The translations under genes and the position numbers were made by a program. The notes beneath the pieces were generated by a model that worked only from the letters and a program-made list of their open reading frames with translations, made no database searches and had not been told where the DNA came from. Shown piece after piece: positions 9,851 through 20,274 of a stretch of 64,000 bases of DNA. The stretch covers positions 2,063,501-2,127,500 of the forward strand of contig AP017991.1 of NCBI GenBank assembly GCA_003609755.1, written 5' to 3'. Position 1 is the first letter of the stretch, and the number at the start of each line of letters is the position of its first letter. The DNA is from Planktothrix agardhii NIES-204. GTDB lineage: Bacteria > Cyanobacteriota > Cyanobacteriia > Cyanobacteriales > Microcoleaceae.

Positions 9851-10591
9851 TTAAGTGTTATATAGCCGATAATTCAATTCACTAGCCAACCAATCTTTAA
9901 ATAGTTTCTGAAGAATTTCTTGATAACGTTGAGGAGTCAATTCAGCTTGAATAAACTCCTCAACTAAGATTAGATGATAACCTTGGTCAGTTTTGACTGG
10001 AGTTAATATTTCTCCTGGGTTTGAACCAAATACAATGGCGGCAAAATCCGCTTTTAACCCCCAACGATAAAGTTTACCTTCATAGCCGCATTGTTCACGA
10101 CGTCGGGGGTCAATATCATATAAATGGGCGGCATGATAGAAACTAATTTCTTCTTCTTCTATTTGATAAAATAATTCCCTAGCCAAGCGTTCATAGGGAA
10201 CAATAATTTGATATAATGAAACTTGCTCGAAATTCAAGCGATTTTGAATAAAGTATTTTTCAACATCTTTAGCAAATAAAGATTCCGCTAATTTTTGCGC
10301 TAAAAGATGTTCTCGAATTCCCGCTTCCCAGTCATCGGAAGTGATCATTTGGTCAGCTAACCAAGCTAAGGTATCCGCCGCCTTTTCTAAGCGTTTTTCA
10401 TGACGTTGTTGGTTAGCTTGGCTTTGAATTTCTTCAGCCGTTACCGTAATTGCTCTTTCCTCAGCAACTTGATTGATTACTTTTTGAAACAATATTTTTT
10501 GATAGAATTGCTTGAATTCCAGGTTTTGTTTCAGGAAACCAATAATTTCCTCATTATCAAGTGAGTCTTTGGAAAGTTGCACCATGACCAT
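9851..10591 (-). CDS. Parvulin-type (SurA/PpiC-like) peptidylprolyl isomerase
   Basis: A 246-residue protein with an N-terminal helical SurA-like region (about 1-120, many Gln/Glu) and a C-terminal rotamase domain. LTPVKTDQGYHLILVEE near residues 196-212 is the conserved final strand of the parvulin fold. There is no signal peptide, so it is either cytoplasmic or exported by a non-Sec route. It lies 20 bp after the RTX repeat gene on the same strand and is therefore probably its operon partner. PPIases of this type are often found beside bacteriocin or NHLP-type exporters in cyanobacteria. A second in-frame ATG at 10585 is an alternative start. Confidence 0.75.
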   Translation of the reverse strand: MVMVQLSKDSLDNEEIIGFLKQNLEFKQFYQKILFQKVINQVAEERAITVTAEEIQSQANQQRHEKRLEKAADTLAWLADQMITSDDWEAGIREHLLAQKLAESLFAKDVEKYFIQNRLNFEQVSLYQIIVPYERLARELFYQIEEEEISFYHAAHLYDIDPRRREQCGYEGKLYRWGLKADFAAIVFGSNPGEILTPVKTDQGYHLILVEEFIQAELTPQRYQEILQKLFKDWLASELNYRLYNT

Positions 10592-10611: not shown

Positions 10612-12972
10612 TTAGCTTAACATTAGCAGGCTGTTAGAAATCACGGTGAAATCGGTTGGCGTTAATGTCGTTTGTCCATTTACAGAAACTGTACCTAACA
10701 CAACACCAAGAACTTCAGATTGACTATCACTACCGAGTTTAATGATAGTAGCATCAAGACTTCCATCAGCATTATAATCGAAGGTTTCTAATATTAACGG
10801 TTGTCCGATTAAGTTTTCCGATAATCCAATCTTATCACCTTCAGCAGCATTAAAGTCTGTAATTATATCTGCTAAATTGGGGTTAGAGTTTGGGAAATTG
10901 GGATTTGTGTTGAAGACAAATACATCCGCATCTGCTCCTCCTGTTAATTCATCTTGACCGAGATCACCGATTAGAATATCATCACCATTGCCACCGATTA
11001 AGATATCATTGCCTTTCCCCCCTCTAAGAATATCTTGATCATTTCCTCCATCAAGAGTATCATTACCTTTGTTTCCTTGTAATAAGTCTGTTCCACTTTT
11101 ACCTTCAATTTTATCTGCGCCTTTAAACCCGCGTATTGCATCATTTTCATTGCTACCAATGAGTTGATCATTTTCGATACTACCGAGTTGTGGTGTGCGT
11201 TCAATAGCTATAACGGTTAAAGGATTCGGTTCTGGACTAATCTGAATTAAGATACTAGAACTAGAATTACTATCGTTATTGTTATTATCAGATTCTATTA
11301 CCACTTTTACCTCGGTAGTTGGTAATATATCCGTACTACTAATAGCCGTTGCTGTTGCTTTACTAGAAGTAGCACCAGGAATAAACACAGACTCACTACT
11401 CTGTTTAACTTCTCCAGTTGGGGAAATTGTTGTAGCTTGACTGTCTTTCCCCGCACCTGCGTCATTGACAATAGTAGTCGAACTAGAACTAGAATTACTA
11501 TTGTTATTGTTATTATCAGGTTTGAGCACTACTTTTACCTCGGTAGTTGGTAATATATCCGTACTACTAATAGCCGTTGCTGTTGCTTTACTAGAAGTAG
11601 CACCAGGAATAAACACAGACTCACTACTCTGTTTAACTTCTCCAGTTGGGGAAATTGTTGTAGCTTGACTGTCTTTCCCCGCACCTGCGTCATTGACAAT
11701 AGTAGTCGAACTAGAACTAGAATTACTATCGTTATTGTTATTATCAGGTTTGAGCACTACTTTTGCCTCGGTAGTTGGTAATATATTCGTACCACTAATA
11801 GCTGTTGCTGTCGCTTTACTAGAAGTAGCATCGGGAATAAATACAGACTCACTACTCTGTTTAACTTCTCCAGTTGGGGAAATTGTTGTAGCTTGACTGT
11901 CTTTCCCCGCACCTGCGTCATTGACAATAGTAGTCGAACTAGAACTAGAATTACTATCGTTATTGTTATTATCAGGTTTGAGCACTACTTTTGCCTCGGT
12001 AGTTGGTAATATATCCGTACCACTAATAGCTGTTGCTGTCGCTTGACTAGAAGTAGCATCGGGAATAAATACAGACTCACTACTCTGTTTAACTTCTCCA
12101 GTTGGGGAAATTGTTGTAGCTTGACTTTCTCCCCCCGCACCGATGTCATTGACAACAGTAGTCGAACTAGAACTAGAATTACTATTGTTATTGTTATTAT
12201 CAGGTTTGAGCACTACTTTTACCTCGGTAGTTGGTAATATATCCGTACTACTAATAGCTGTTGCTGTCGCTTGACTAGAAGTAGCATCGGGAATAAATAC
12301 AGACTCACTACTCTGTTTAACTTCTCCAGTTGGGGAAATTGTTGTAGCTTGACTTTCTCCCCCCGCACCGATGTCATTGACAATAGTAGTCGAACTAGAA
12401 CTAGAATTACTATCGTTATTGTTATTATCAGGTTTGAGCACTACTTTTACCTCGGTAGTTGGTAATATATCCGTACCACTAATAGCCGTTGCTGTTGTTT
12501 GACTAGAAGTAGCACCAGGAATAAATACAGACTCACTACTCTGTTTAACTTCTCCAGTTGGGGAAATTGTTGTAGCTTGACTTTCTCCCCCCGCACCGAT
12601 GTCATTGACAATAGTAGTCGAACTAGAACTAGAATTACTATTGTTATTGTTATTATCAGGTTTGAGCACTACTTTTACCTCGGTAGTTGGTAATATATCC
12701 GTACTACTAATAGCTGTTGCTGTTGCTTCACTAGAAGTAGCACCAGGAATAAACACAGACTCACTACTCTGTTTAACTTCTCCAGTTGGGGAAATTGTTG
12801 TAGCTTGACTTTCTCCCCCAGCACCGATGTCATTGACAATAGCAGTGGAACTAGAATTACTCCCTTGAAAATTGGCATCGGGGGAGTTAATTGTAGTGGT
12901 CGGAGATACTGTATTTATAGGTTCATCTAGGATAACGGGAATATCGTTAGAATTGTTGGTAATATTGCTCAT
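10612..12972 (-). CDS. Large tandem-repeat protein with C-terminal RTX calcium-binding region
   Basis: A 786-residue protein without a Sec signal. Residues about 43-573 are seven nearly identical 76-residue repeats, each starting TTIVND-GAG, containing ISPTGEVKQSSESVFIP and ILPTTEVKVVLKPD, and ending in an Asn run and a Ser run. Residues about 610-690 hold RTX nonapeptides (GGKGNDILIGGNGDDILIG), the calcium-binding parallel beta-roll typical of Type I secretion substrates, followed by a short C-terminal domain (ADVFVF, DFNAAEGDKI) seen at the end of many RTX proteins. It is probably secreted by an ABC/HlyD pathway such as the one encoded at 14.9-20.2 kb, becoming a surface or extracellular Ca-dependent protein. 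The shared palindrome lies 117 bp upstream of its start. Confidence 0.85.
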   Translation of the reverse strand: MSNITNNSNDIPVILDEPINTVSPTTTINSPDANFQGSNSSSTAIVNDIGAGGESQATTISPTGEVKQSSESVFIPGATSSEATATAISSTDILPTTEVKVVLKPDNNNNNSNSSSSSTTIVNDIGAGGESQATTISPTGEVKQSSESVFIPGATSSQTTATAISGTDILPTTEVKVVLKPDNNNNDSNSSSSSTTIVNDIGAGGESQATTISPTGEVKQSSESVFIPDATSSQATATAISSTDILPTTEVKVVLKPDNNNNNSNSSSSSTTVVNDIGAGGESQATTISPTGEVKQSSESVFIPDATSSQATATAISGTDILPTTEAKVVLKPDNNNNDSNSSSSSTTIVNDAGAGKDSQATTISPTGEVKQSSESVFIPDATSSKATATAISGTNILPTTEAKVVLKPDNNNNDSNSSSSSTTIVNDAGAGKDSQATTISPTGEVKQSSESVFIPGATSSKATATAISSTDILPTTEVKVVLKPDNNNNNSNSSSSSTTIVNDAGAGKDSQATTISPTGEVKQSSESVFIPGATSSKATATAISSTDILPTTEVKVVIESDNNNNDSNSSSSILIQISPEPNPLTVIAIERTPQLGSIENDQLIGSNENDAIRGFKGADKIEGKSGTDLLQGNKGNDTLDGGNDQDILRGGKGNDILIGGNGDDILIGDLGQDELTGGADADVFVFNTNPNFPNSNPNLADIITDFNAAEGDKIGLSENLIGQPLILETFDYNADGSLDATIIKLGSDSQSEVLGVVLGTVSVNGQTTLTPTDFTVISNSLLMLS
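11251..12846 (-). repeat. Seven in-frame 228-bp tandem repeats
   Basis: The repeats are exactly 228 bp (76 codons) and nearly identical at DNA level. They differ by block variants: GGES in the first four against GKDS in the last three copies, NNNNNS alternating with NNNNDS, and VFIPG against VFIPD. The mosaic distribution suggests gene conversion and recent copy-number change. Confidence 0.95.
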
Positions 12973-13088
12973 TGCTGTTACAGAAAATTAAGTAATGTAG
13001 TAGCAAGATCATTGTCAAAGTCGGTAACTTTAATAACTTTTTCAAGACAAGCTATTAAATCAAAGTGTAACTAAATGATTTTGATAAA

Positions 13089-13107
13089 TGTTGCCATTTT
13101 GGCAACA
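13089..13107. promoter_or_regulatory. Operator-like palindrome, site A
   Basis: TGTTGCCATTTTGGCAACA is a perfect 19-bp inverted repeat (8-bp arms, 3-bp spacer) in the divergent spacer between the RTX gene (start 117 bp left) and the small Ser-rich gene (start 52 bp right). The same core, TGCCA-N3-TGGCA, recurs at 14187, 14379 (one mismatch) and 16794. Reading left, a -10-like TAGTTACACT lies about 20 bp beyond it. Confidence 0.65.
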
Positions 13108-13159
13108 TTAGCTTAATGAATTATTTTATGCTTCATTCTAATAAGTTGGTATTAAAATC

Positions 13160-13363
13160 ATGTCTAACTATAAAGTCGTATTCAAACGGATAGTCTCACC
13201 GGATGGTAAAGTTATTGCAGAGGCTAAAAGCGTAGTTTCAACATCAGAGGATCAAGAAAATGAAATTAGCCAAAGCGTTTCTGTCAATATTTCATCTGTT
13301 AATGGTTACAGTCAGGCTAAATCGAGTTCTAGTTCTTCCTCAACCTCTAGTTATCCTAATTAA
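13160..13363 (+). CDS. Small Ser-rich cyanobacterial protein
   Basis: A 67-residue protein, MSNYKVVFKRIVSPDGKVIA followed by a Ser/Val/Glu middle and a poly-Ser tail. It has no signal peptide and no double-glycine motif. Its core (SPDGKV-x5-SV) resembles the core of each 76-residue repeat in the divergent RTX gene (SPTGEV-x5-SV), and both end in Ser runs, so the repeat unit may have derived from such a protein. It is transcribed alone, from next to site A to the terminator at 13385. Function unknown; linkage to the exporter suggests cargo or a helper. Confidence 0.7.
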   Translation: MSNYKVVFKRIVSPDGKVIAEAKSVVSTSEDQENEISQSVSVNISSVNGYSQAKSSSSSSSTSSYPN

Positions 13364-13384
13364 TTTGTGATTAATTTTAAAATA

Positions 13385-13420
13385 AAAAAGTCCCTATTTT
13401 GTCAGGAATAGGGATTTTTA
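13385..13420. terminator. Bidirectional Rho-independent terminator
   Basis: TCCCTATT and AATAGGGA form an 8-bp stem (13391-13398 with 13407-13414), with an A-tract on the left and TTTTTA on the right. It sits between the convergent genes at 13160 and 13484 and could end both transcripts. Confidence 0.75.
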
Positions 13421-13483
13421 TCTGTTGAATATTTTTACTTAATCAAAAAGTGAATCATGAGAAAAAACGCCACTTCACAGAGG

Positions 13484-13756
13484 TTAACTGGCATAGCTGG
13501 AAGCATAGGCATAGGTAGATGTATTTCCATCTGAAATCGCACCAGCTACCGCACCAGCAGCAGAGCCACCATAAGAAGCATATATCGAGTAGCTGTCATC
13601 AAATCTTTGAATAATGTAGAAGGCATTGTAACTGGAACTATGATCGGTACTGACAGATTTAGAAGGAGCAGAAAAATAACCGCCACCTTTTATTTCCTGT
13701 GCATTAGTACCCGTATTTTCACAAAAACTCAAATTAGCAATGGTGATCTGACTCAT
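13484..13756 (-). CDS. Double-glycine-leader secreted peptide 1
   Basis: A 90-residue precursor. The ATG at 13756 is chosen because GGAG lies 8 bp upstream; an in-frame ATG 12 bp earlier lacks this. The leader, MSQITIANLSFCENTGTNAQ then EIKGG, ends at residue 25 in the Gly-Gly where C39 peptidases of ABC exporters cut. The predicted product is about 65 residues, rich in Ser, Tyr, Ala and Gly with a central GGSAAGAVAG and no cysteine. It follows the second such gene (13870-14100) on the same strand. It is a bacteriocin-like or signalling peptide candidate; the activity is unknown. Confidence 0.75.
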   Translation of the reverse strand: MSQITIANLSFCENTGTNAQEIKGGGYFSAPSKSVSTDHSSSYNAFYIIQRFDDSYSIYASYGGSAAGAVAGAISDGNTSTYAYASSYAS

Positions 13757-13783
13757 AAATTTCTCCAAAAGAATATAAAAACA

Positions 13784-13821
13784 CTGAAAGCTTTCAATGA
13801 TTAAATTGAATTAGCTTTCAG
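13784..13821 (-). terminator. Intercistronic hairpin, possible attenuator
   Basis: CTGAAAGCT and AGCTTTCAG (9-bp perfect stem, 20-bp loop) are followed on the minus strand by TGTTTTTAT. It lies between the two double-glycine peptide genes and could partly terminate the transcript, lowering expression of the downstream peptide. Confidence 0.5.
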
Positions 13822-13869
13822 CGATGGTATTGCAACTAGCTATACATCCAAACTCAATTCGGAATTGGA

Positions 13870-14100
13870 TTAAGCAGCAGCCGAATTACTGGCAGAACTA
13901 GAGTTGGCGGAGGTATAATAGCTTCCAGACCACCAGTCATATCCTGTATATGCAGAGGTATAAGTGCTGGTGAAAGTGGCAGCAAAGTAGTTACCGTTTG
14001 CATAAGCACCAGCATAAGCATCAGCAAAAACAACACCGCCGCCTTTGATATTGGATGCTTCGTCAACGACTTCTAAATGGTTTAAATCTTGAATAAACAT
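13870..14100 (-). CDS. Double-glycine-leader secreted peptide 2
   Basis: A 76-residue precursor whose leader is MFIQDLNHLEVVDEASNIKG with the Gly-Gly pair at residues 20-21. The predicted ~55-residue product is rich in Tyr, Ala, Ser and Thr (AYAGAYANGNYF, YTSAYTGYDWW) and lacks cysteine. DLNHLEVV-x-E is typical of C39-processed leaders, whose hydrophobic and acidic positions dock on the peptidase. AGGA lies 9 bp before the ATG. It is first in its transcript, with palindromes B and C upstream. The likely processing enzyme is the C39-domain exporter at 17086-20163. Confidence 0.8.
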   Translation of the reverse strand: MFIQDLNHLEVVDEASNIKGGGVVFADAYAGAYANGNYFAATFTSTYTSAYTGYDWWSGSYYTSANSSSASNSAAA

Positions 14101-14186
14101 GGTTTTTTTCCTAAAGAATGGTTTATTTGGGTATCAACTTTGTTTGTTTGTTGATGTTTCTAATATAATCTGGTTTCTCTTGCCTG

Positions 14187-14202
14187 TGTTGCCATTTTGG
14201 CA
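14187..14202 (-). promoter_or_regulatory. Operator-like palindrome, site B
   Basis: TGTTGCCATTTTGGCA shares 16 of 16 bases with site A. It lies 86 bp upstream of the start of peptide 2. On the minus strand a -10-like TTATATT follows about 22 bp beyond it, a distance that would suit an activator bound near -40. Confidence 0.65.
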
Positions 14203-14280
14203 TATTTGTAGATTATTTTTTTGGAGTTGAAATCAATAGATGAAAAAGGATTGATTTTGAAAAACCGACCATAAATAAGG

Positions 14281-14308
14281 CTCTGAAAATCAGAAATAAC
14301 TTTCAGAG
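14281..14308 (-). other. Hairpin in the leader of the peptide operon
   Basis: CTCTGAAA and TTTCAGAG form a perfect 8-bp stem with a 12-bp loop, between sites C and B. A transcript from site C would carry it. No ORF is seen from 14203 to 14378, so this stretch is either a long leader or a small RNA. Confidence 0.35.
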
Positions 14309-14378
14309 GAGTTCGTTTTATTCAAACTTTAATATTCAAGGTCGTGTAAATGGTATTGTAATTACGTTTCGGAATAAT

Positions 14379-14394
14379 TGTTGTCATTTTGGCA
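14379..14394 (-). promoter_or_regulatory. Operator-like palindrome, site C
   Basis: TGTTGTCATTTTGGCA differs from site B by one base. It lies just past the terminator of the HetP-like gene and 279 bp upstream of the peptide 2 start. On the minus strand TAATTACAAT lies about 20 bp beyond it. Sites B and C may be tandem promoters for the peptide genes. Confidence 0.5.
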
Positions 14395-14411
14395 GTTTTT
14401 TTATATTTTCC

Positions 14412-14438
14412 AAAAAAAAACCTGCTTGAACACAGGTT
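14412..14438 (-). terminator. Rho-independent terminator of the HlyD-HetP-like operon
   Basis: On the minus strand AACCTG-tgttcaag-CAGGTT is followed by a run of T. It lies about 125 bp after the stop of the HetP-like gene and before site C. Confidence 0.75.
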
Positions 14439-14563
14439 GTATAAAAGATGAAAAGATGTGGAAAAGCGGATTTTTTTAAAAAAGTGAAAAACAGACTCAA
14501 AAAAATGATTTTAAACTTAGGCGAACAGAAGGTTAAAGTTGGATCGGTCGTTTAGTGCAGTTT

Positions 14564-14941
14564 CTAAGGACTATAGAAGTTCTCGACAACCTCTAAATGC
14601 CGAAATCCTCCCGAAACCCCCCGACTCAATTCAGGAATAGGCTCCAAATAGGTTAAGTCCCGAACTTTGCCCGCACCAGAAGGTATAGTCTGGGTGTGAG
14701 CACTTGACTTAACAGATGTCGGATTACCTTGAGACTGAGAATTAGAATTATTATCCTTAGCCAGTCGGTTATAGGTGCGATAGGGAATATAATGCAGTGG
14801 ATTATATCCGGCAAAACGCAGGATTAAAACACAAGCCCAAGAATACTTTCCCGATAAAATCGCATCTAGGATTTGTTCAAATTGTTCTTCACTCATCGCT
14901 TTAGCGACTTTCGAGTTATTGTAGGAATATTGAGCAGACAT
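14564..14941 (-). CDS. HetP-family protein with leader-like C-terminus
   Basis: A 125-residue protein. The start is ATG at 14941, with AGGAG 8 bp upstream. Residues about 16-60 carry the HetP-family signature: [20 protein letters not shown] and [20 protein letters not shown]. In Anabaena, HetP promotes commitment to heterocyst differentiation and hetP neighbours hetC; homologues occur in cyanobacteria without heterocysts, with unknown roles. After a Ser/Asn/Gln linker the C-terminus reads [20 protein letters not shown] and then [13 protein letters not shown]. This imitates a double-glycine leader: compare DLNHLEVV and IKGG of peptide 2. It begins 30 bp after the HlyD gene and shares its transcript. 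Whether the C39 peptidase cuts at residue 112 is untested. Confidence 0.85.
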
Positions 14942-14971
14942 TTCTTGCACTCCTAATTAGTAAATAGTGTT

Positions 14972-16651
14972 CTACAAATCTATGCCATTTTTCTGCAATT
15001 GCAGAATGGGATTAAGTAGAATATCCATAATCCGACGACGACGAATAATAATATCCGCACTAGCCGTTTGTCCAGATTTTAACTGAATTTTCTGATCCTT
15101 TTGCAAAACGTAGTCTTTTTTTAAGACAATTTCTAATTTATAAACTGACCCGACTGCTTGATCGACTTTTGTATCGGGTGAAATTGAGCGAACTGTTCCT
15201 TCAAATACCCCATAATTTTGATAGGGATAAGCATCGAATTTGACTTTAACCGACATTCCGGTTTTCACAAATCCAGCTTTCTCATTCGGGAGACTAGCTG
15301 TTAAAATTAGGGGTGCATTTTTGGGCGTAATTTCAGCCACGGTTTGTCCGGGTTGAATGACTTCTCCCACATTAAACACATTCAAGGCAGAAATAACTCC
15401 ATCAATGGGAGAATAGAGATATCGTTCTTGAAGTTTAGCTTCAGCCGTTGTAATTAAATTTTGAGTATTTGTAATTTGCGCTTTTAATTGAGTTACTTCT
15501 AACTCAGTTTGTTGAATTTTTTGCTGGGTTGCGACTTGAATTGTTTTTGCCTCCGCTTGTTTCTGGGCTAATTCCGCATTTAATCGTTCAATTTCAACTT
15601 GAGATTGTTTTAATTCTCCTTGAGATTGGGTGATTAATCTTTGTCGATCCCGAAAACCTTGTTCCGCTTGAAAAATCAGTTCTTGGGTACTATTTTTTTC
15701 TGATAATTGAGCTTGAACAATGCCTCTTTGTTGATCCCGCAAGTTTTGTTCGGCTTGAAATAATAGGTCTTTAGAAATAGCACCACTTTCTAACAGAGGT
15801 TGTAGCCGTTCTAGTCGTTCTTTAGCCGCTGATTCTCCCTCCTGCAATTTTTCAATTAGGCTTTGAGTTTCTGCCTTTAAGGGTTGTAAAGATTCAACTC
15901 GTTTTTGAGTTGCTGACGCCTCAAAATTGAGTTGACCTAGTAAGTGCTGATTCGATACAATTTGGCTTTCAACTCGTTCAATACTGGCTTGTTGAGATTG
16001 AAGTTGAGCCGTGGCAATCGCCGTTTGGGTTTGGGCTTCTAAATGAATCCGTTCAATTAACCCTTTTTTTTGAGTTAGTTCGGCTTGAAAGGCGGTGAGT
16101 TGTTGTTGTAATCCCGCTAATTCTTGGATGGCAATTTGTCGATCTAGTTCGGCTAAAACCTGACCTTTTTTAACAGTTTGCCCTTCTTTAATCGAAATTA
16201 GAGAAACTTTTCCCAACTCAACGGGATGGATTTTGTAAACTTCTCCTTGGGGTGCTAATTTCCCTCTAGCTTGACCGACTTCATCTACGGTTCCGAAATA
16301 TCCCCATGCACCAAAGGCGATACAAAAAATAAATCCTCCTAACATTAATTGCAGGGGAAAAGACGCCGGGGGTTGATCCAGTAGAGACTGTAAGGCATTT
16401 GACCAGTCCGGTTTTGCCGTCGGAACACTAGCTGGAGGAGGGGATTTTTTGGGGACTGTTTGGGGGGGTGCAAGTTGAGGAAAGGGAACAGAACCCGCTA
16501 TACCGCCATAAATATGATCGGTGTGTTTTGTCTGTTCAATACCCAATTCCAGATCCTCTAAGTATTCCTCCTGTAAGGTTACAGACAATTGGGAGTCTGA
16601 ATCATCATTAGTGTTTTTACTGAGAGAGGAAAATAGTTTGTACGGTTTCAT
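14972..16651 (-). CDS. HlyD-family membrane-fusion protein
   Basis: A 559-residue periplasmic adaptor. A Pro-rich cytoplasmic N-terminus (to about 100) leads into one transmembrane helix (LMLGGFIFCIAFGAWGYFG, about 102-120). A split lipoyl/barrel-sandwich domain (EVYKIHPVELGKV, TVKKGQVLAELD) then flanks a long Gln/Glu-rich coiled-coil hairpin (about 175-405), and the C-terminal beta-barrel ends near 540. It would link the inner-membrane ABC exporter to an outer-membrane TolC channel, which is not encoded in the window. Palindrome D lies 143 bp upstream of its ATG; the HetP-like gene follows within 30 bp. Confidence 0.9.
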   Translation of the reverse strand: MKPYKLFSSLSKNTNDDSDSQLSVTLQEEYLEDLELGIEQTKHTDHIYGGIAGSVPFPQLAPPQTVPKKSPPPASVPTAKPDWSNALQSLLDQPPASFPLQLMLGGFIFCIAFGAWGYFGTVDEVGQARGKLAPQGEVYKIHPVELGKVSLISIKEGQTVKKGQVLAELDRQIAIQELAGLQQQLTAFQAELTQKKGLIERIHLEAQTQTAIATAQLQSQQASIERVESQIVSNQHLLGQLNFEASATQKRVESLQPLKAETQSLIEKLQEGESAAKERLERLQPLLESGAISKDLLFQAEQNLRDQQRGIVQAQLSEKNSTQELIFQAEQGFRDRQRLITQSQGELKQSQVEIERLNAELAQKQAEAKTIQVATQQKIQQTELEVTQLKAQITNTQNLITTAEAKLQERYLYSPIDGVISALNVFNVGEVIQPGQTVAEITPKNAPLILTASLPNEKAGFVKTGMSVKVKFDAYPYQNYGVFEGTVRSISPDTKVDQAVGSVYKLEIVLKKDYVLQKDQKIQLKSGQTASADIIIRRRRIMDILLNPILQLQKNGIDL

Positions 16652-16793
16652 AGGGTTATGTAAAACCTAGCCAACAAAGGTTGGTGTTTTAATTGTTTTT
16701 TTAAAATGAAATAGTGATCTTACGGTCAGACCAGTGTTCTTGTTTTTATCAAAATCCTCTGTATTTATACTAGGGTAACTTTTGATTTTAAAC

Positions 16794-16806
16794 TGCCAAT
16801 TTGGCA
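16794..16806 (-). promoter_or_regulatory. Operator-like palindrome, site D
   Basis: TGCCAATTTGGCA has perfect TGCCA/TGGCA arms with the same 3-bp spacer as sites A and B. It is upstream of the HlyD-HetP-like operon. On the minus strand TAGTATAAAT, a good -10 candidate, lies about 20 bp beyond it. Confidence 0.6.
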
Positions 16807-17085: not shown

Positions 17086-20000
17086 CTATAAAGCCAGTTG
17101 TTGTTGAGCTAAATGATAATAGAGTCCTTGAGTTGCCATTAGGTGTTCATGGTTGCCCTGTTCAACTAAAATGCCTTTGTCTATAACTAAAATACAATCG
17201 GCACTTCTCACGGTTGAGAGACGATGGGCAATAATAATGGTGGTGCGGTCGCGTTGCATTTGTTCTAAATTGCGTTGAAAACGGTGTTCACTTTCGGTAT
17301 CTAAAGAACTGGTTGCCTCATCTAAAATTAGAATTCTAGGACTTCCTAATAAAGCTCTAGCGATCGCTACTCGTTGCCGTTGTCCTCCCGATAAACTTGA
17401 TCCCCGTTCTCCAACTTTGGTATAATATCCTAAAGGTAAACCTTGAATAAATCCATGAACTTCTGCTAATTTTGCAGCCTCAATAACTTGATCTAAAGTA
17501 TATTCATCCCGATACAGAGTAATATTTTCTAAAAGCGTTCCTGAAAATAAATAACAATCCTGGGGAACAACGCCCATTTGTGAACGTAAAGAAGGGGGAG
17601 AAACATGGCGAATTTCATGCCCATCCACATAAATATGTCCGGTTGTGGGATGGTACAAACCTTGCAGTAATTTAACTAGGGTGCTTTTCCCTGAACCACT
17701 GCGCCCAACAATAGCAATGGTTTGACCTGGAGGAAATTTAAAAGAAAGATTTTGCAAAATATTCGTTTCGGCATCTTCCTGATAACGAAAAGTCACGTTA
17801 TCAAAGTGAATTTCTCCCTGGATTCTCGGTAATACAATTAACGGTTTTTGCGGGGTTTCTTCCGGTTCTTGTTCAAATACATCATTTAACCGTTCTACGG
17901 AAATTAATACTTCTTGCAATTCGTCCCATAATCCTACTAAGGCAAGAATCGGACTAATTACATAACCCTGCATCATATTAAAGGCGACAAACTGACCAAT
18001 AGTTAATTGATCTTGAATTACTAAAGTTGCACCAAACCAAAGTAAGGCTGTACTTCCTATTGAATTAATTAACCCACTGACAAATTCTAAATTAATCCCT
18101 AATTTCTGAGCTTTAAACTGAACATTCATCTGTTTGGTTAATCGTTCTTCCCAACGCCAACGTAATTCCGGTTCCGCCGCTACTGCTTTTACTGTATTAA
18201 TTCCGGTCAAAATTTCCACTAAAGTTGAATTTTGATCGGCAGAGGCATTAAATACTTGACGGGAAATATGTCGTAACATTGGCGTTGCTGCTAAGGTTAG
18301 AAGAATAATTAAAGGCACAATTCCTAAAATTAAAATTGTGAGTTTCCAGTTGTAATAAAGCATCAACCCTAAATACACAAACCCCGTCACAACATTCAAC
18401 GCCGACAATAAAATTTGACCGACGAGAAACCGTTGAATTTTCTGATTTTCTTGAACCCGGGTAATGATATCCCCGACGCGGCGGGACTCAAAGAACTTTA
18501 AAGGAAGTTTTAGGGCGTGGTTAATAAACCCACCAATTAGAGTTAAATCCAAACGATTTGATAAGTAACTCAATAGATATTGTCGAATTGAAGATAACCC
18601 CAAACTCCACACGCCAAATAATAACAACCCCAAGGCAAATACATTCAAACTGGTGAGACTTTTATTCACCACAACCCGATCTAAAATAATCTGGGTTAAT
18701 AAGGGAGTAACAATCCCAAATATCTGAATTAATAGGGATAACAAAACAATTTGTAATCCTAAAAACCGATGGGGCCAAATTACCCCAGCAAACCGACCAA
18801 GAGAGCGTTTCTGCTCTTGGAGTTCATGGAATTGATCGGTGGGTTCCAAAAGTAAAGCATAGCCCGTCCATCCGGTTAAAAACGCCTGACGAGAGAGGGT
18901 TTTTCTGCCCTCACCCGGATCAGCAATCACCACTTGATGGCGCCGGACTTTATAGACCACAATATAATGATCCCCTTGCCAATGGGCAATCCAAGGTTTT
19001 TTTTCGGTTTCTAAACGATTCAAACTTGCCCGGACTGGTCGCGCTTGATAACCTAATTTTTCTGAGGTAAGAGTGAGATTTTTTAAGGAGACTCCAGATC
19101 GTCCTACATCCGAAATATTACGGAGGCTATTAATACTTAAATATTTCCCCCAATATTGACTAATCATCGCCAAACAAGCGATCCCACAGTCGGAGGAGCT
19201 TTGCTGTTCTATAAAAGGATAGCGTTGCCAAAATCCTCGCCAGACTCGTTGACGTTTGGGTTTTGGGAAGCTGAGGGTTTGGGGCGTTGGCGGAGCGATC
19301 ACTGGAGAGGGTTTCACAGTGGGGGGTTGAAGATAAACGGTTTTTTCCTGTGTCCGTATCGGAGATTTCCCGCCTTGTACGGATGTTGTCTGTAAGGTTT
19401 CTGCGGGAAGTTGATACACGACTAACTCCGTGGCGGCGATCCATTCTGGGGAGATGCGATCGGGTTCTCCCCAACTGTCGCCCACCTGGGGAACGGTATC
19501 GGCGCCTGTAATTTGTCCTTGATACAGCCAAAATCGGCTCTGTTCTATTGGGATCGCAGAGAGTACGGGAGTTCCGGCGTTGATGTGATGTTGGGTGCAG
19601 TTGGATAAAAGTTCTTGTAGTCGGTGACTGGCCAACCGTCCCCAGTCCGTTTGGGTTTTGAAGAATAATAACCGTTGTCGGCTTTCGATGGTGGTTTTTA
19701 GATAGGTTTGTAGTTGGGTCTGGGCTGGAATTTCGACAAGAGGAATCGAAGCCACAATGACATCACTGGCTGCGATCGCTTGATAAGATAAATTTGAGTA
19801 TTCCCATCCGGCTTGATCCCCGCCAAAGGTTTCACCGGGTTCAATCACTGAAACTGAAACCTCCCGATTTAGATTTTTGTCCCAGGCTAGGAGTCGGACT
19901 CGACCTTCAACGACTAAATAAACCAGGGGTTTTGGATTGGGTTCACTGTTAACTGTTTTTTTGGTAAAAATGGCTATATCATCAATAGAATCTCCTAGTT

Positions 20001-20163
20001 GAAACGAGTGGAGATGCCAATGTTGACTCCAAGCTGCAAGATTAATGGTATCGACTTGGATTTGTGTTAAGAGATTTTCTAAGGTGGCAATCAATAAATA
20101 TTGAGAAGTCTTAGGGCTAGGTGTAAACGCCCGATCCCGTTCAGTTAAGTTAGGTTTGATCAT
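17086..20163 (-). CDS. HetC-like peptidase-containing ABC exporter with cNMP-binding domain
   Basis: A 1025-residue fusion; ATG at 20163 is preferred to the TTG 33 bp earlier. Order: a cyclic-nucleotide-binding-like domain (about 30-190, GETFGGDQ), a second degenerate regulatory region, a C39 peptidase (about 320-450), a six-helix ABC transmembrane domain (about 470-740) and an ATPase (about 790-1020). In C39 the oxyanion Gln and catalytic Cys are in EQQSSSDCGIACL, His in GDHYIVVY and Asp in ADPGEG, so it looks active. The ATPase has GRSGSGKST, LSGGQRQR and LILDEATSSLD. This is the architecture of Anabaena HetC and SunT-type exporters. It should cut double-glycine leaders and export the peptides encoded at 13.5-14.1 kb. 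Confidence 0.9.
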   Translation of the reverse strand: MIKPNLTERDRAFTPSPKTSQYLLIATLENLLTQIQVDTINLAAWSQHWHLHSFQLGDSIDDIAIFTKKTVNSEPNPKPLVYLVVEGRVRLLAWDKNLNREVSVSVIEPGETFGGDQAGWEYSNLSYQAIAASDVIVASIPLVEIPAQTQLQTYLKTTIESRQRLLFFKTQTDWGRLASHRLQELLSNCTQHHINAGTPVLSAIPIEQSRFWLYQGQITGADTVPQVGDSWGEPDRISPEWIAATELVVYQLPAETLQTTSVQGGKSPIRTQEKTVYLQPPTVKPSPVIAPPTPQTLSFPKPKRQRVWRGFWQRYPFIEQQSSSDCGIACLAMISQYWGKYLSINSLRNISDVGRSGVSLKNLTLTSEKLGYQARPVRASLNRLETEKKPWIAHWQGDHYIVVYKVRRHQVVIADPGEGRKTLSRQAFLTGWTGYALLLEPTDQFHELQEQKRSLGRFAGVIWPHRFLGLQIVLLSLLIQIFGIVTPLLTQIILDRVVVNKSLTSLNVFALGLLLFGVWSLGLSSIRQYLLSYLSNRLDLTLIGGFINHALKLPLKFFESRRVGDIITRVQENQKIQRFLVGQILLSALNVVTGFVYLGLMLYYNWKLTILILGIVPLIILLTLAATPMLRHISRQVFNASADQNSTLVEILTGINTVKAVAAEPELRWRWEERLTKQMNVQFKAQKLGINLEFVSGLINSIGSTALLWFGATLVIQDQLTIGQFVAFNMMQGYVISPILALVGLWDELQEVLISVERLNDVFEQEPEETPQKPLIVLPRIQGEIHFDNVTFRYQEDAETNILQNLSFKFPPGQTIAIVGRSGSGKSTLVKLLQGLYHPTTGHIYVDGHEIRHVSPPSLRSQMGVVPQDCYLFSGTLLENITLYRDEYTLDQVIEAAKLAEVHGFIQGLPLGYYTKVGERGSSLSGGQRQRVAIARALLGSPRILILDEATSSLDTESEHRFQRNLEQMQRDRTTIIIAHRLSTVRSADCILVIDKGILVEQGNHEHLMATQGLYYHLAQQQLAL

Positions 20164-20274
20164 GGTTTTGAGGGTATAAATAGTGTAGATTAGCAATCAA
20201 TGAAGCAGCCCGTAGGAATACAAATTAGGCTTTTCTAGTCCCTTCAAAACCTCCTTCGCAAATGGAAATCTAGC

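Follow-up and report, generated by a model that had tools for sequence, protein, structure and literature searches.

Which protein reads a short palindrome that stands before the transcription units of a peptide export cluster, and what does the palindrome do there? The question is raised by a 64-kb stretch of the Planktothrix agardhii NIES-204 genome (hereafter, the window), where sites A to D, of the form TGCCA-N3-TGGCA (site C with one mismatch), are found upstream of genes for an HlyD-type membrane fusion protein and a HetP-family protein, of double-glycine peptide genes, and of a gene for an RTX-repeat protein. The palindrome is very probably the activator operator of a real, previously undescribed regulon for peptide and RTX export. 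The fuller reading, which adds as the binder the HetP protein, of a family long enigmatic and familiar from cell differentiation in related cyanobacteria, has in our judgment a slightly better than even chance of being right. If true, it would define a regulon that controls the export of double-glycine peptides and RTX proteins in Planktothrix and other cyanobacteria and would link the differentiation of multicellular forms to a more ancient switch for peptide secretion.

Rarity, conservation, and promoter geometry of the palindrome

All four sites are located where the initial annotation had placed them. Site A, described there as a perfect palindrome of 19 bp, is indeed perfect but longer, as AATGTTGCCA-TTT-TGGCAACATT spans 23 bp (positions 13087-13109). 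The core of site B is identical to that of site A. The window contains 6 matches to TGCCA-N3-TGGCA with at most one mismatch versus 1.45 expected, and none of 100 shuffles reached 6. The exact motif is found in only 4 copies in the 5.08-Mb genome (7 for the reversed control), 3 of them within the 3.7 kb discussed here (Poisson P of about 4e-9 from the genome-wide rate); the fourth, at C1:1748209, is embedded in an open frame of roughly 1330 amino acids (aa). Thus, the motif is not frequent throughout the genome irrespective of promoters, and its sites are kept in the orthologous loci of relatives, the two points on which the initial annotation had said that its proposal could fail.

In P. rubescens PCC 7821, each of the 5 exact copies in the genome falls in the orthologous locus; in Planktothrix sp. 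PCC 11201, this is true of 7 of the 10. Loci L032 and L035 share both site B and the one-mismatch variant seen at site C. Across the genus (12 rows, 10 of them distinct), site D keeps its ten arm bases without exception and the TAGTATAAA core of its -10 region is likewise invariant, with an identity of 0.97 in the site, 0.97 in the -10 region, and 0.83-0.89 in the flanks. In other cyanobacteria, too, the palindrome is found ahead of genes for HlyD-HetP, double-glycine peptides, and RTX-like proteins, and at least one exact site is present in 38 of the 67 named loci found with HlyD. In Planktothrix, Lyngbya, Kastovskya, Okeania, Hydrocoleum, Laspinema, and Oscillatoria, the site upstream of HlyD is followed, 20 to 23 bp on, by a TAGTAT-, TAGAAT-, or TAATAT-like element; in the Calothrix-type loci L047, L054, and L055, the TA-rich element lies about ten bases farther away. 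With an AT-only centre, the motif outnumbers the control in four other genomes by 17 to 1, 18 to 3, 4 to 0, and 5 to 0.

The geometry of the sites was examined around 67 HetP genes of the same type as that in the window (418.5 kb within 3 kb of these genes, with some loci present twice). These regions contain 98 copies of the palindrome (89 distinct), whereas the 59 other palindromes obtained by permuting the same five bases average 0.27. When spacers of 0-12 are scanned, 98 of 102 sites have a spacer of 3 and the remaining 4 have other spacers; 85 of the 89 distinct sites lie outside open reading frames (ORFs) of 110 aa or more. TATAAT-like hexamers in the 188 flanks of 94 sites show a peak of 18 at 22 bp, with 6 at 24 bp and at most 5 at any other offset. 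In the window, the -10-like sequences that had been noted on the minus strand about 20 bp from each site are real and evenly placed, at distances of 22, 22, 21, and 21 or 24 bp. With the -10 element set as -12 to -7, the hexamer peak would put the site centre at about -41, a fixed position of the kind taken by class II activators (-41.5 for the CRP type). The pooled peak supports the proposed activator bound near -40, and rarity, conservation, the fixed spacer, and the -10 geometry all support the candidate regulon.

Copies outside the exporter loci were inspected by eye in 35 stretches, which cover a subset of such copies (e.g., 10 of 18 in genome G067). Some are upstream of RTX-like genes (L128, L147, and L154), of a GG-motif peptide gene (L143), or of a PpiC gene beside hetP (L153). 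In L142, the palindrome precedes a haemagglutinin-like gene, and in L149 it is found before a large ORF that begins with a Pro-rich, signal-like segment; from these two cases, the regulon may reach other secretion routes. Many of the other copies fall within coding sequences (fabF, for example) or have no informative gene next to them, and chance may account for these.

HetP as the candidate reader

HetP was taken as the candidate because it is the conserved gene of the operon that is neither a transport component nor an enzyme. The window protein matches the HetP family NF037966 with 117.8 bits (curated cut-off, 45). Copies of TGCCAWWWTGGCA and of its reversed control were counted in 114 genomes, comprising the window's own genome and those of the same genus, family, order, and class; more distant genomes, none with HetP, were left out, and these include some with several copies (6 in G084 and 5 in G086). 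The 42 same-order genomes with HetP contain 197 motif copies versus 32 of the control, and 40 of them are above control, whereas the 33 same-order genomes without HetP contain 23 versus 43, and 6 are above control (Mann-Whitney, 2e-11, relatedness not corrected). The reversed control alone differs between the two groups in the opposite direction (P of 0.02). For all 114 genomes, the counts are 201 versus 32 with HetP (42 of 44 above control) and 57 versus 50 without it (20 of 70). The pattern is also seen within families. In family f1, the HetP-less genomes G016 and G030 hold 0 and 1 copies, respectively; in family f7, HetP-less genomes have at most 1 copy, with 0 in 7 of 10, and the HetP-encoding G165 and G201 have 3 and 4. 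An exception in f7 is G156, which encodes HetP and has no W-centred copies but carries three other-centred copies at its hetP locus.

The association also holds between loci. In all 63 named cyanobacterial HlyD loci (L094-L097, from other phyla, with neither HetP nor an exact site, were left out), HetP is encoded in 37 of 38 loci with the site versus 13 of 25 without it (Fisher, 2e-5). The respective values for the other cluster genes are 0.02 for the RTX-like gene, 0.67 for the exporter, 1.0 for PpiC, and 1 for HlyD, making HetP the best predictor of the site among them. The palindrome is thus probably read by the HetP-family protein encoded in the operon, as far as these distributions can indicate.

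Sorting 134 HetP genes by residues 54 and 58 of the predicted helix 3 (some loci are present twice, e.g., L048/L194 and L068/L228) separates classes that carry different sites. Sites with T..A edges, as in the window, are found at 52 of 67 loci of the Y-N class and T..T or A..A sites at 6. In the Q-S class, TGCCA-N3-TGGCT is present within 3 kb of 19 of 22 genes and the T..A form at 1 of 22; the Y-I class has 1 T..A and 1 T..T site among 25. GTATTCT is found some 20 bp after 18 of the 20 TGCCA-N3-TGGCT sites upstream of Q-S hetP. The two forms are segregated by paralogue in the 17 genomes that encode both: the Y-N loci have T..A in 14 and T..T in 1, and the Q-S loci have T..T in 16 and T..A in none. 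The paralogue clade with the altered helix 3 (Y54Q) therefore carries the altered site in the same genomes. At 17 of the 22 Q-S genes, the exporter gene is absent from the examined stretch, so that the motif accompanies HetP also where the exporter is missing. In the five Q-type exporter clusters (L061, L063, L064, L066, and L071), the HlyD promoter is also T-edged, and L047, L054, L055, and L067, of the Y-S type and nearest to them on the tree (53 columns, with many forks open), keep T..A. If HetP reads the operator, Y or Q in helix 3 against A or T at the site edge would be a ready-made specificity swap.

Other HetP variants give no more than a hint of covariation. Moorena proteins with PSRTYSR in helix 3 are accompanied by repeated G-, A-, or C-edged sites outside ORFs of 80 aa or more, along with T..A sites; the Hydrococcus variant (PYTTYIR) has TACCAAATTGGTA, which falls within an ORF; and NGCCA-N3-TGGCN is absent from the 3 kb around hetP at two R-type loci.

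Several individual loci of these classes deserve mention. In the Moorena locus L043, a series of altered-edge sites (AGCCA-N3-TGGCG, TGCCA-N3-TGGCG, and others) extends from +1637 to +5291 relative to an SS-type hetP; these sites lie outside ORFs of at least 80 aa, several have TATAAT about 23 bp on, and they look like an array of promoters. In L222 (genome G046), an edge variant, TGCCAAGATGGCG, occurs twice, 29 bp apart, at +448 and +477 after a Y-S type HetP. The Y-I proteins (YRTYIRL in helix 3; among L187-L232) nearly all lack both the palindrome and a nearby exporter.

Also in favour of HetP as the reader, its domain is predicted to be a small three-helix unit (predicted local distance difference test [pLDDT] score of about 90) with near-invariant R, T, Y, R, and K in helix 3. 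Other observations limit this reading. Fold and profile searches with the domain gave no clear match and no recognised DNA-binding fold. The Q type is a single clade in the HetP tree, so that the Y-to-Q shift amounts to a single evolutionary change, visible at promoters of two kinds. In Anabaena, according to the parts of the reports available to us, HetP-GFP (green fluorescent protein) is located near the heterocyst poles and hetP has no effect on the induction of hetR or patS. The same texts also state that, in the absence of HetR, heterocyst formation is restored by hetZ and hetP jointly, as would suit a regulator.

The strongest alternative is that some other transcription factor, encoded away from the cluster, uses the palindrome as its operator, with HetP either among the genes regulated along with the rest or acting as a partner without DNA contact, and we regard this as possible though rather less than probable. 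It would account for the lack of a recognised DNA-binding fold in HetP, and the 5-3-5 geometry would suit known factor families; GntR/FadR, LuxR, CRP, and TetR would be candidate families for such a factor. The Y-to-Q correlation rests on one clade, and a single asymmetric form in one orthologous promoter set could be plain inheritance. However, HetP alone among the families that recur in the examined neighbourhoods shows the pattern, and the two site forms segregate with the HetP paralogues within the same genomes. HetR, the obvious regulator in filaments, is excluded as the reader: no match to PF03574 was obtained in the HetP-encoding genomes G040, G042, G046, G053, G156, G165, G201, and G216, of which G053 has 1 W-centred copy, G156 has 0, and the other six have 2 to 12. 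HetR is present in G016, G030, and G043, which lack HetP and hold 0 to 1 motif copies.

A repressor operator near -41 in place of an activator site is unlikely. Palindromes that overlap the -35 region can serve repressors, but repressor sites tolerate varied positions, and the narrow 22-bp distance to the -10 element across many promoters is the pattern of activator dependence. That the palindrome acts in RNA, as an attenuator hairpin or a protein-binding leader, is highly improbable: a 10-bp stem could form at site A, but it would close on a loop of 3 bases, the arms of sites B to D are short, and, because the palindrome precedes the -10-like element by a narrowly defined distance, the promoter downstream of it would not transcribe it. 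Just as little credence goes to chance palindromes or copies of a mobile repeat. AT-rich intergenic DNA does have many palindromes, and some site-bearing units are in tandem in Moorena loci, but the counts above (6 versus 1.45 in the window and 98 versus 0.27 near HetP genes) and arms that stay unchanged while the flanks diverged speak against this reading.

With HetP as the reader, a protein dimer would bind TGCCA-N3-TGGCA, centred at about -41, and would recruit RNA polymerase to the -10 element, which lies 22 bp downstream. This would switch on a small dedicated regulon made up of the HlyD-HetP operon of the type I exporter, the double-glycine peptides, and the RTX or adhesin-like substrates. 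Recognition would most likely involve the third helix of the in-operon HetP (YRTYNRL in the window), and the cluster would then activate itself. The C-terminal third of the window protein carries a tail, VRDLTYLEP...SGG, that resembles a double-glycine export leader, and a loose pattern for such tails is matched by 40 of 85 HetP proteins with an exporter gene in the examined locus versus 1 of 49 without it. Wang et al. took such tails, in the text available, as a sign of possible peptide precursors (PMC3140520); alternatively, the tail may let a regulator dock on the C39 domain of the exporter or be cleaved by it. A broader proposal is that HetP proteins form a new class of transcription activators with sequence-specific recognition of TGCCA-N3-TGGCW. 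These proteins would have arisen as in-operon regulators of a double-glycine peptide exporter, whose C39 domain may sense or cleave them through the leader-mimicking tail that many of them have, and the secretion switch would only later have been put to use in heterocyst commitment (hetC-hetP). We hold this larger proposal tentatively, at somewhat less than an even chance.

Gene order and sites of the cluster

On the minus strand, the order is as follows: the exporter, site D, HlyD, HetP, sites C and B, the two double-glycine genes, the divergent pair at site A, and PpiC (Table 1). The match of the exporter to the cNMP-binding domain scores below the Pfam cut-off. The second double-glycine peptide gene is probably cotranscribed with the gene upstream of it, and site A would drive the RTX gene as well as, on the opposite strand, the small Ser-rich ORF. 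The RTX gene carries an array of near-identical units of ~228 bp with Ser/Asn-rich linkers, and antisense ORFs repeat at the same step.

Table 1. Genes, palindromic sites, and putative -10 elements of the export cluster (window coordinates)
Feature	Position	Strand	Remarks
PpiC/SurA-type peptidyl-prolyl isomerase	9851..10591	-	
Ser-rich RTX-repeat protein	10612..12972	-	Probable type I secretion substrate
-10-like TACACT	13064..13069	-	22 bp from site A, towards RTX gene; putative promoter
Site A	13087..13109		Core TGCCATTTTGGCA at 13092-13104; between divergent RTX gene and small Ser-rich ORF
-10-like TATGCT	13127..13132	+	22 bp from site A, towards Ser-rich ORF; putative
Small Ser-rich ORF	13160..13363	+	Family present in 10 loci, including the window
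Second double-glycine peptide gene	13484..13753	-	No site of its own
Double-glycine peptide gene	13870..14100	-	Probable exported substrate
-10-like TATATT	14162..14167	-	22 bp from site B; putative
Site B	14190..14202	-	Core TGCCATTTTGGCA; upstream of double-glycine peptide genes
-10-like TACAAT	14355..14360	-	21 bp from site C; putative
Site C	14382..14394	-	TGTCATTTTGGCA (minus strand, TGCCAAAATGACA); one mismatch
HetP-family protein	14564..14941	-	Proposed palindrome reader (putative role); predicted helix 3 contains YRTYNRL
HlyD-type membrane fusion protein	14972..16651	-	
-10-like TAGTATAAA	16764..16772	-	TAGTAT at 21 bp and TATAAA at 24 bp from site D; putative
Site D	16794..16806	-	TGCCAATTTGGCA; between C39 ABC transporter gene and HlyD, upstream of HlyD-HetP genes
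ABC exporter (PteB/HetC type)	17086..20196	-	C39 peptidase and N-terminal cNMP-binding-like domain

Comparison with known systems

No description of the palindrome or of HetP as a DNA binder was found among open-licence papers, in the parts of them available to us. The promoters resemble class II activator promoters of the CRP type in having a palindrome centred near -41 in place of the -35 element and a conserved -10 element. Unlike these, the half-sites TGCCA and TGGCA of the window are only 8 bp apart, centre to centre, and no CRP-family regulator gene is linked to the palindrome here.

The HetR operator of Anabaena, GAGGGGTCTAACCCCTC, is likewise palindromic, cyanobacterial, and located near hetP, but the palindrome described here differs from it in both sequence and spacer. 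According to the available part of the report, HetR requires GGGnnnnnCCC (PMC4192349), and the TGCCA-N3-TGGCA sites do not have this pattern, in agreement with the initial annotation, which had seen no match to this operator.

In the Anabaena PCC 7120 hetC-hetP-patC region, a C39-type exporter (HetC) is likewise encoded beside hetP and a small peptide gene; that system, however, serves heterocyst commitment under HetR, and the available text of the respective papers mentions no such palindrome (PMC4133259, PMC10986499). In hetC-hetP-like loci of genomes from the same taxonomic order as the window, the palindrome lies downstream of hetP, 594-793 bp after the hetP start in L156, L161, L174, and L182 and 1906 bp after it in L184, with TACATT or TAAATT 22 bp on and often no clear ORF behind. 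Such a palindrome could possibly serve a small RNA or a very short peptide.

Group II bacteriocin clusters of Wang et al. (2011), as described in the available text, encode a C39 ABC exporter with CAP_ED, HlyD, SurA/PpiC, HetP-like proteins with KIxDLxYLEx10GG, and double-glycine peptides (PMC3140520). The cluster in the window belongs with them, as it has the long C39 ABC protein with its N-terminal cNMP-binding-like domain (match below the Pfam cut-off), HlyD, a SurA-type protein, a HetP-like protein, and double-glycine peptides. That text describes no operator, the word "promoter" is absent from its main part, and the HetP-like proteins appear there as possible precursors, not as regulators. 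The EbfG/PteB system of Synechococcus elongatus is similar in its small secreted double-glycine proteins, which enable biofilm formation (PMC4997328), and the exporter in the window is of the PteB type.

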